40,811 nt of DNA from Bacteroidales bacterium (lineage in GTDB: Bacteria; Bacteroidota; Bacteroidia; Bacteroidales; JAAYJT01): NCBI GenBank assembly GCA_012522795.1, contig JAAYJT010000079.1:1-40811 (forward strand). Reading direction: 5' to 3'. Position numbers and translations under genes: made by a program. The notes under the pieces were generated by a model. It had not been told where the DNA came from. It worked only from the letters and a program-made list of their open reading frames with translations, and did not search any database. This document shows, one piece after another, positions 11,208-14,801 of the stretch (position 1 is its first letter; each line of letters opens with the position of its first letter).

Positions 11208-12683
11208 TTAATAATATCTGTAGCTTTTAACCTGCGATATGTGCTTAGCGAGTCTTGTCACCTGGCAGGTATATCCATATTCATTATCATACCAGGCGTA
11301 AATTACAATACTCCGCTTATCATTTGAAACCTTTGTTGCCATACTATCGTAGATACAAGCGCAGGAATCGCCGATACAATCAGTTGACACAAGTTCGTTT
11401 GAAGTTGAAAATCTGATCTGTTCAATAAGACGACCTTTCAATGATGCGCTACGCATTATTTCGTTTACTTCTTCAAGGCTGGTGTCTCTTGCAACATCAA
11501 GCATAAGAATTGCCAATGAAATGTTTGGAGTAGGCACACGTACCGCATTGGCTGTCAATTTATTGGTAAGGCTCGGAATAGCTTTGACAGCTGCAGAAGC
11601 AGCACCTGTTTCGGTAATAACCATATTAAGCGGAGCAGAACGGCCGCGGCGTGTTTTTTTATGGTAATTATCCAATAAATTCTGGTCGTTAGTATATGAA
11701 TGTACTGTTTCAAGATGCCCTTTTACAATACCGATATTGTCTTCTATAACTTTCAAAACCGGCACTACTGCATTGGTTGTACATGATGCTGCTGAAAAAA
11801 TCTTTTCACCGTTCGATCCCAGATTACATACTTCTTGATTTACTCCATATACAATGTTTGGTATGTCACCTTTTCCGGGTGCTGTCAACAAAACCATATC
11901 GGCTCCCGGGCATTTAAGATGGCGACTAAGATTAGCCCTATCGCGATAAACACCAGTATTATCTATTATCAACGCATCTTTTATACCATGTTCTTCATAA
12001 TTAAGTTCATCAGGCTGAGAAGCTGCAAGCATTTTAACCATGTGCCCGTTAATATATATCACCTGATTGTCAACATCCTCAACCACAACGCCATACATAA
12101 CACCATGAACTGAATCTTTACGTAATAAAGAAGCACGTTTTCTTATTTCTTCAGGTGAGTTTCCACGGGTAACTATTGCTCTTAATCTCAATTGATTTCC
12201 CTTACCAGAACCCTGAATTATTTCTCTAGCCAACAAACGGCCAATCCTTCCAAAACCATACAGTACAACATCTTTTGTAATTTGGCTGCGTGGTGCAACA
12301 TCAATAATATAGGAAAGCTTGCTACGCAAAAATGCTTTCATATTATTATCAAAATTTTCTTTTTCTTCAGTCCATTCCCGGTTTAAGCGTCCTATATCAA
12401 TACGTGCAGGTGCGAGGTTCAACTCAAGCATTGCTTTTGCAATCTTCAGGGAATCCTGAATTATCAGCGGTTTATTAATAATATTCTCTGCATAGGAGTG
12501 TTTATGCAAAATTGAATTTGAACCTCTGTCGAGCAATTGTCGTCTGAGAAAAATGAGTTCCACTTCTTTATCATACCATAGCTGTCCAATAATATCAATG
12601 AATTCATTGGCAGTCTTTTGATCAACAATCCAGTTTTCAAGTGTTGACTGGTAATTTTCATTGTTTTCACGTGCTTGTTTCAT
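11208..12683 (-). CDS. gap: Glyceraldehyde-3-phosphate dehydrogenase, long N-terminally extended form
   Basis: Oxidises glyceraldehyde 3-phosphate to 1,3-bisphosphoglycerate, or the reverse in gluconeogenesis. The protein is 491 aa, against about 335 for the classical enzyme. A helical N-terminal extension of some 135 residues precedes the Rossmann motif GFGRIGR (143-149). The catalytic cysteine is C301 in SAASCTTN. The partner histidine lies in the following ETVHSYTNDQ segment, and RRGRSAPLN and VRVPTPN are conserved. The ATG at 12683 is preferred to the GTG two codons upstream. Long GAPDHs of this kind are known in Bacteroidota; the job of the extension is not known to me. Cofactor preference cannot be read safely. 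The promoter is at 12747-12775. Confidence 0.92.
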   Translation of the reverse strand: MKQARENNENYQSTLENWIVDQKTANEFIDIIGQLWYDKEVELIFLRRQLLDRGSNSILHKHSYAENIINKPLIIQDSLKIAKAMLELNLAPARIDIGRLNREWTEEKENFDNNMKAFLRSKLSYIIDVAPRSQITKDVVLYGFGRIGRLLAREIIQGSGKGNQLRLRAIVTRGNSPEEIRKRASLLRKDSVHGVMYGVVVEDVDNQVIYINGHMVKMLAASQPDELNYEEHGIKDALIIDNTGVYRDRANLSRHLKCPGADMVLLTAPGKGDIPNIVYGVNQEVCNLGSNGEKIFSAASCTTNAVVPVLKVIEDNIGIVKGHLETVHSYTNDQNLLDNYHKKTRRGRSAPLNMVITETGAASAAVKAIPSLTNKLTANAVRVPTPNISLAILMLDVARDTSLEEVNEIMRSASLKGRLIEQIRFSTSNELVSTDCIGDSCACIYDSMATKVSNDKRSIVIYAWYDNEYGYTCQVTRLAKHISQVKSYRYY

Positions 12684-12746
12684 AACCACTTTTTGTTAAA
12701 GTTTATAGTTGTTTTTAATTTACAGAACACAAGATTTAAGTGGCTT

Positions 12747-12822: not shown

Positions 12823-13740
12823 ATCGAGTAGGTAGGGGGATTACTCCCCCGCTCTCTCGCACTACCATGCATGGTGAAAATAGTTAAGCCAGCTACGACT
12901 TTGTTCCGCTTTATCTGTCCATATGCTTGTGTGATATTGCTGTAACACAATATCACTCCCATCAAATCTCAGGTTAAGGCTCATTCTTGTTCACCTACTT
13001 CTTTTACCTGCAACGCCTTTATTGAGTGAGCTCCGCTTACGGCTTCACTCTGAACAAAAGTGCGAATAAACGCGCTGCCTATCTGGCTAAACAGGCCAGC
13101 TTAGTAAGTTATACGATTTGTATTTACATTAGTTAATGCCGATGGTTTAAATATTCAGAACAATTAAGCGAAGCGATTATACGAATTGTATTTACAAAAT
13201 AATTAAAGCTGTTTTGTAAATTACAATCGTTAATGCCGGTGGTTAAAACATTAAGAACAATTGAGCGAAGCGATAATTGGTCTGTTATATTTTGCCAATC
13301 GGTATTATATCTTGCTGTTACGCCATAAAACAAATGCTGAACTAACTGCTACTTAAGTTAAAAGATTCAGACCTTCTTCTGTGATGTTAATGCACAGAAT
13401 ACTATGTCTTCTGCTGACTTCCTGATGAATATAAAGTTCATCACTGAACTTCTCGCACTGTTGGTACCGCATCAAGACCTCTCGGGATAAAATATTAAAA
13501 TTTCTCTGCGTTCTACCTGATTTACTCAACTTGAGTTATGGTTGAATTTTAGGTGTTACCAATCCATTGTCGGTTGCCCCTCAAAGGAGTCTTATATCAG
13601 ATTTCTATGAGTAAGAACTTCAGATTTGCTAAGGATTTATTTTAGGTTCGAGTCATCCACGACACCCTTATCAATTGCTAATGTTTCCTATCAACTCGGC
13701 ACATGCAGGAACTTTCATCCTGCCAGCTTAATATCATACC
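12823..13740 (-). mobile_element. Probable degenerate group II intron lacking its reverse transcriptase gene
   Basis: Read on the minus strand, 13740 to 13342 resembles the 5' RNA part (domains I-III) of a bacterial group II intron. Familiar stretches are GGCAGGATGAAAGTTCCTGC, AATCTGATATAAG, TATCCCGAGAGGTCTTG (about 13472-13488), and GAAGTCAGCAGAAGACATAG (13402-13421), which in such introns lies shortly before the intron-encoded protein. The 3' end at 12865-12823 resembles domain VI: AGTGCGAGAGAGC, a GGGGGA/TCCCCC hairpin, then CCTACTCGAT. Between them there is no reverse transcriptase frame, only about 500 bp with direct repeats. I could not fold a complete domain V: the 3' half (CATGCATGGT) is present but no matching 5' half with an AGC triad and GAAA loop. 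It is therefore probably a dead relic. The 5' end (GTATG at 13739?) is uncertain. Identification rests on remembered motifs. Confidence 0.55.
13109..13274. repeat. Direct-repeat block inside the intron relic
   Basis: A 46-bp sequence at 13132-13177 recurs at 13229-13274 with five mismatches (offset 97 bp). Both begin GTTAATGCC and end GAGCGAAGCGAT or AAGCGAAGCGAT. A 20-bp sequence at 13109-13128 recurs at 13177-13196 with one mismatch (offset 68 bp). The block sits where the reverse transcriptase gene would be expected. No coding signal is seen. Origin unknown. Confidence 0.75.
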
Positions 13741-13752
13741 TGGCATATAAAA

Positions 13753-13779
13753 AAGACCGTTTCACAATGAAACGGTCTT
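13753..13779 (-). terminator. Intrinsic terminator of rpoD
   Basis: A perfect 11-bp stem AAGACCGTTTC/GAAACGGTCTT with a 5-base loop. On the minus strand it is followed by a run of six T. It lies 27 bp after the rpoD stop and immediately before the intron relic, which was therefore not inserted between gene and terminator. Confidence 0.88.
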
Positions 13780-13805
13780 AATAAAACCTAAAAACATAAA
13801 AATCA

Positions 13806-14669
13806 TTAACCAAGATAATACTTTAGAAGTTTACTCCTTGATGATTGTTTTAATCGCCTGATAGCTCTTTCCTTGATCTGTCTGACTCTTTCGCGGGTCA
13901 GATCAAATTTAATTCCGATCTCTTCAAGGGTAAGCCCATGATTCATACCTATTCCAAAATAAAGATACAGAACCTGTCTTTCCTTTTCTGAAAGAGTTGA
14001 TAACGAACGATGTATTTCTTTCAGCAAAGATTCTTTTATAAGAGTGTTATCAGTTCCTTCAGCATCTTCATTAACAAATACATCAATATATTTTGTATCT
14101 TCATCTTCAGCAAGAGGAGCATCCATTGAAATATAACGGGTAGAGATCTTTAAAGCAGCATCAATTTTTTGTTGCGGCACTTCCATAGCTTCAGCAATTT
14201 CTTCAGCCGAAGGCGGACGTTCAAACCGCTGCTCCAAGCGGTTTGATTCCTTTCTAATTTTACTTAATGATCCTACCTGATTAAGTGGAAGTCTTACGAT
14301 CCTGGATTGCTCGGCAAGGGCCTGAAGTATTGACTGACGTATCCACCATACAGCATAAGAGATAAATTTAAAACCTCGTGTTTCATCAAATCTTTGCGCA
14401 GCCTTAATAAGTCCTAAATTACCTTCATTAATCAAGTCGGGAAGGCTAAGACCCTGATTCTGGTACTGTTTAGCAACAGACACAACAAACCTAAGATTAG
14501 CTTTGACAAGCTTCTCCAAAGCTTCATGATCGCCAACCTTAATGCGTTGTGCAAGCAACACTTCCTGATCCGCAGTAATAAGCTCTTCGCGGCCTATTTC
14601 CTGCAAATATTTATCAAGCGAGGCCGTTTCCCGGTTTGTAATAGATTTCGTGATTTTTAACTGCCTCAT
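13806..14669 (-). CDS. rpoD: Primary RNA polymerase sigma factor (sigma-70 family, short Bacteroidota type)
   Basis: Directs RNA polymerase to the housekeeping promoters, which in this phylum are of the TTTG/TAnnTTTG kind seen throughout the window. The 287-aa protein begins [22 protein letters not shown], which fits the phylum's short sigma without region 1.1. Region 1.2 ([14 protein letters not shown]), region 2 ([48 protein letters not shown]), region 3 and region 4 ([28 protein letters not shown]) are all visible. The start at 14669 is chosen for this conserved N terminus; the open frame extends 13 codons further without similarity. Ends in an intrinsic terminator. Confidence 0.95.
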
Positions 14670-14801
14670 TATTTTATATTTTTTTGTAACATATTCTATA
14701 ACAATCAAACAGGTAGTAATGTTTTAATTACAACCTTTTGACCAAAATACTAAATTATTAACTCAAACTCTAAAACAAATATTATATTTATTGTCAACAA
14801 A

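Follow-up and report, generated by a model that had tools for sequence, protein, structure and literature searches.

What kind of element lies behind the sigma factor gene in the window, by which we mean the whole stretch of 40,811 nucleotides that was analysed, and can it still function? The earlier note on this DNA had read a minus-strand group II intron that had lost its reverse transcriptase (RT), and had offered two states for it: a dead relic, or an RNA without an open reading frame (ORF) that is helped by an RT encoded elsewhere. We conclude, with a probability of about 95%, that the window copy is a dead group II intron relic that decayed in place, in which the RT, one half of the catalytic core and the original first base are gone.

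The intron RNA, its relatives and its insertion site

Rfam searches identified conserved domain I-IV RNA on the minus strand, with matches above the gathering thresholds to RF02001 (13662-13492; 54.3 bits, gathering 32, E 2.6e-8) and RF01998 (13455-13370; 60.4 bits, gathering 35, E 1.5e-8). These matches bear out the earlier reading of this half of the region as the 5' RNA domains of a group II intron; the domain V model failed to match. Weak matches near 13743-13869 (STnc340, the L20 leader and others) stayed below gathering, cover the end of the sigma gene and its terminator, and were taken as chance. At the opposite end, the GGGGG/CCCCC hairpin of domain VI and the terminal CCTACTCGAT mark the true intron end, and the same 28-base end occurs in 66 stretches of other genomes, in agreement with the earlier assignment of this end to domain VI. 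The domain is intact, with the same hairpin as in the relatives and 92% identity over the last 51 nt. The extent proposed earlier (12823-13740) is therefore correct at its 3' boundary but not at its 5' end, which lies at 13748. There the relic begins with ATATG, against GTATG in the relatives, and thus has an A in place of the conserved initial G.

The relatives were found by scanning for the 3'-end pattern GGGGGAGTAATCNCCCTACCTACTCGAT, which matched the 66 stretches, nearly all of them from Bacteroidales and neighbouring Bacteroidota. Many of the matches lie at contig ends, as expected of multicopy elements. DNA searches for close copies, run on 60 related genomes and on 395 of the class, gave short matches only, and no plasmid-borne relatives of the intron were found. 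The full-length copies with an intron protein that were to be sought by BLASTN do exist, but it was the 3'-end pattern and not the DNA searches that led to the family. Five of its members, from several other Bacteroidota (L045, L048, L066, L088 and L098), are complete introns of 1912-1914 nt, compared with 926 nt for the window copy, and carry reading frames of 475-495 residues from stop to stop; the L045 protein matches the group II RT/maturase model TIGR04416 with 414 bits. The relic is about 80-84% identical to these introns over domains I-III and has the same 5' context and the same 3' end. In contrast, the intron protein is open in all five and domain V scores above the Rfam gathering threshold in four of them, whereas the relic has neither. 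The element is therefore best placed among group II introns by descent, as a relic rather than a functional intron, since its domain V is broken. Two shortened members of the family were also seen. One, in a Chitinophagaceae MAG (L065), is 725 nt long, has no protein, an intact domain V (43.1 bits) and a strong domain I, and is a candidate ORF-less intron. The other (L028 834-1080; G036 C112) is a domain I-IV fragment with no domain V in the 3.3-kb stretch read, and represents an independent relic.

The relic lies directly after a rho-independent terminator, whose stem and T-run (13753-13779) are followed by the first intron base at 13748. Complete and shortened relatives alike begin with GTATG, and in most of them a terminator T-run stands directly before it. 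Two genomes of the same genus share the gene order, lack the intron and have a terminator closing the sigma gene; their unoccupied sites measure about 150 bp and about 350 bp, against roughly 1.06 kb here. Comparison with the complete relatives and with these unoccupied sites demonstrates an insertion behind the sigma-gene terminator. The relic shows that the intron family once reached this genus. It is probably without effect on the host because it is intergenic and sits behind a terminator.

Table 1. Positions of the relic, its parts and its neighbours in the window
Feature	Position	Strand	Basis
Whole intron relic (926 nt)	12823..13748	minus	Collinear BLASTN blocks with complete introns L045, L088 and L048
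Domains I-III, start of domain IV, first codons of the intron protein	13305..13748	minus	83.7% identity to L045 positions 2-449; RF02001, RF01998
Domain V 3' half, complete domain VI, intron 3' end	12823..12873	minus	92% identity to L045 1863-1913; fold comparison
Start of the intron protein frame (ATG GCG TAA), third codon a stop	13318..13326	minus	MA*QQDI against MAQQQEI in L045
Intron protein remnant, codons 12-87, with stops	12887..13111	minus	tblastn with the relatives' proteins, E 2.8e-26 to 8.7e-22
Maturase-domain remnant RSWLNYFHHA (10 residues), other frame	12864..12891	minus	Block and protein comparison with relatives
Deletion 1 junction, 6-bp repeat GCTGGC	12888..12893	minus	BLASTN block ends; removes about full-length positions 669 to 1544
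Deletion 2 junction, 6-bp repeat CATGCA, inside domain V	12868..12873	minus	Removes about full-length positions 1571 to 1863
193-bp dispersed repeat (MITE-like) in the protein remnant	13112..13304	minus	BLAST copies in the genome; ends TACCGATTGG and AAATCGTA, TAA on both sides
TAA target-site duplication, upstream copy	13305..13307	minus	Sequence flanking the 193-bp repeat
TAA target-site duplication, downstream copy	13109..13111	minus	Sequence flanking the 193-bp repeat
Sigma-factor gene terminator, insertion target	13753..13779	minus	12-bp perfect stem, T-run (inverted repeat I4); most relatives sit in the same place with respect to a terminator
RpoD-type sigma factor gene, upstream of the intron	13806..14708	minus	ORF; same-genus orthologues 93% and 85% identical
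Glyceraldehyde-3-phosphate dehydrogenase-like gene (named by eye), downstream of the intron	11208..12689	minus	ORF; synteny in L137 and L138

Lesions and the inserted repeat

We read the lesions of the relic from four collinear BLASTN blocks, in which its positions 2-444, 680-860, 858-885 and 876-926 align to positions 2-449, 489-669, 1544-1571 and 1863-1913 of L045 with 83.7, 81.8, 92.9 and 92.2% identity, respectively. The sequences carry a 6-bp repeat at both deletion junctions. Deletion 2 takes away the 5' half and the loop of domain V. In the complete relatives this domain matches RF00029 with 43.1 bits and folds perfectly, with a GAGA loop, a two-base bulge and a z of -6.1; the relic retains the 3' strand only, such a stem is absent from its fold, and a permissive Rfam search of the region gave no RF00029 match even at E 10, which bears out the suspicion that domain V was incomplete. 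The intron-encoded RT/maturase is not intact either and persists only as codons 12-87, which are 59-66% identical to the relatives' proteins and contain stops, and as the 10-residue piece. The earlier statement that no frame of the intron protein remains is thus right in that no open frame is left, but both pieces are still recognisable.

The RNA has decayed unevenly. The RF02001 match has 54.3 bits in the relic, compared with 97.2-119.9 in 11 complete or shortened relatives, so that domain I has decayed and about half of its covariance score is lost. The score for RF01998, which spans the end of domain I through domain IV, was kept: its 60.4 bits fall among those of the complete relatives (56.4-66.9). 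This, together with the intact domain VI, counts against reading the copy as a dead relic. In the family tree no end branch is longer than that of the relic (0.21; median 0.062).

The middle of the region described earlier (13304-13112) is a dispersed repeat and not intron. The intron relatives read through the insertion site uninterrupted and do not carry the 193-bp repeat, which gave 43 BLAST matches in the genome, the full-length self-match and 42 other places. No other part of the relic matches elsewhere in the genome, where the intron is single copy. Copies of the repeat, among them the window copy and those in L002-L020, are about 125 bp long; repetition of the body or of a head unit of about 31 bp makes some of them longer. 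Their ends, TACCG and CGTA, are imperfect inverted repeats. Of 17 copies examined, 11 are flanked on both sides by the same triplet, TAA or TTA, as 3-bp TWA duplications. The insert is a MITE-like transposon that struck the intron.

As these comparisons show, the starting point was a complete terminator-targeting group II intron, encoding an RT/maturase without an endonuclease extension, that settled immediately after the rho-independent terminator of the rpoD-type sigma gene; on our reading, it then died in place. Its first base changed from G to A, and its protein gained the stop at codon 3 and further stops. The MITE-like repeat entered close to codon 8, duplicating TAA. Two deletions, each between 6-bp direct repeats, cost the intron most of its protein together with the 5' half and tetraloop of domain V. 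Each of these lesions is demonstrated in the relic; they are listed in no particular order. The remaining RNA should be able neither to splice nor to move because domain V and a functional 5' end are known to be needed.

Known introns and domain-V-less copies

Class C introns and their neighbours target rho-independent terminators (PMC8919778). Among these terminator-inserting introns without an endonuclease domain (class C and the neighbouring g6, U1 and U2; PMC8919778), the family resembles the known members in its insertion directly after such a terminator, in its complete length of about 1.9 kb and in an RT/maturase (about 470 residues) whose end lies just ahead of domain V; the window copy differs in being dead. 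The relic has the insertion site expected of class C, but the neighbouring types also insert after terminators (PMC8919778), so the site alone fixes no class. Most bacterial intron copies are truncated or inactivated (review, PMC4424553), and fragmentation has been described for RmInt1 (PMC4496777). The relic shares inactivation and fragmentation in the genome with these truncated introns (PMC4424553) and with the fragmented RmInt1 copies of Sinorhizobium meliloti (PMC4496777). Unlike RmInt1, whose decay has been described with loss of the 3' end, it keeps both ends and has lost its inside. The kind of element and the kind of decay are both already known, and nothing lifts this inactive fossil out of the ordinary. 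On its own it is of little consequence: a well-documented intron death in which every lesion can be read against living relatives.

Without domain V, an intron would be expected neither to splice nor to move. The Paludibacteraceae MAG SV1-B3.2 (G451) contains three copies of the family (L109, L111 and L112, on C68, C83 and C123), about 626-633 nt long, that have neither protein nor domain V. All three have one and the same junction, at which about position 602 of the complete intron meets about 1877, and each stands behind a different terminator. As seen by eye, two further substitutions near the junction are common to them, yet the domain I-IV tree speaks neither for nor against a single origin of the three (p-AU 0.0995). 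A fourth copy (L110) is without protein and keeps domain V. Two histories would account for the copies in this genome: repeated loss of domain V at a single short repeat, or the spread of a form already lacking domain V, through transposition in trans or through recombination. We found no paper in the open literature on mobile bacterial group II introns without domain V, though this does not prove that there are none. Surveys that require domain V, as in the pipeline of PMC8919778, cannot count remnants such as the relic, nor these multicopy derivatives.

Rescue in trans and other readings

Could the window copy instead still work as an ORF-less intron that relies on a protein from another locus of the genome for splicing or mobility? 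The 725-nt L065, with its intact domain V, makes such a state possible in the family, and the preserved domain VI and RF01998 region of the relic would be consistent with it, but half of domain V is gone, the first base is A and not G, and the covariance score of domain I is down by about half. Nor does the genome provide a partner. Across its 2.88 Mb (100 contigs, 97% complete; a full intron copy at a contig break could be missing), RF00029 has no match at E up to 1, RF01998 has no second match, and no group II maturase was found. The one RT (C8, L021) is retron-like and adjoins cas1; considered as a helper, it was rejected on its best matches to retron-type models, a group II model score of 45.7 bits against a cut-off of 300, and its place beside cas1. 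Rescue of the relic in trans is very unlikely because the genome is without a domain V and its sole RT is retron-like, and we give the functional reading only a slight chance. Of the two states offered by the earlier note, the ORF-less RNA served by a distant RT thus falls to the losses in domain V, the first G and domain I and to the want of a partner, whereas the dead relic agrees with the covariance matches, the full-length relatives with their intron protein and the incomplete domain V.

It is similarly improbable that the relic was inserted already broken, as a non-autonomous element like the three G451 copies, whose common junction behind different terminators is the evidence for such a course. 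The relic is single copy in its genome, its two deletions differ from those in G451, and the lesions of its protein remnant are of different kinds, which fits stepwise decay in place. Equally improbable is the broader idea that derivatives of the family without protein and domain V are mobile as non-autonomous elements, served in trans with both domain V and maturase, and that the window copy descends from one. Least probable of all is co-option of the remnant RNA or of the extended 3' region, for example as an sRNA or as a 3' stability element of the rpoD mRNA: the location directly behind the sigma-factor terminator and the two structured segments left would suit such a role, but the terminator position is the normal target of the intron family, and the decay and the absence from same-genus genomes speak for no selection.

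Apart from the intron, the RT locus of this genome has features of its own. The retron-like RT gene (L021 1357-3406; G000 C8) lies directly upstream of cas1, 7 bases apart; the ORF in front of it (268 residues) matches no family. As a CRISPR-associated RT outside the usual group-II-like type, it may deserve a look.
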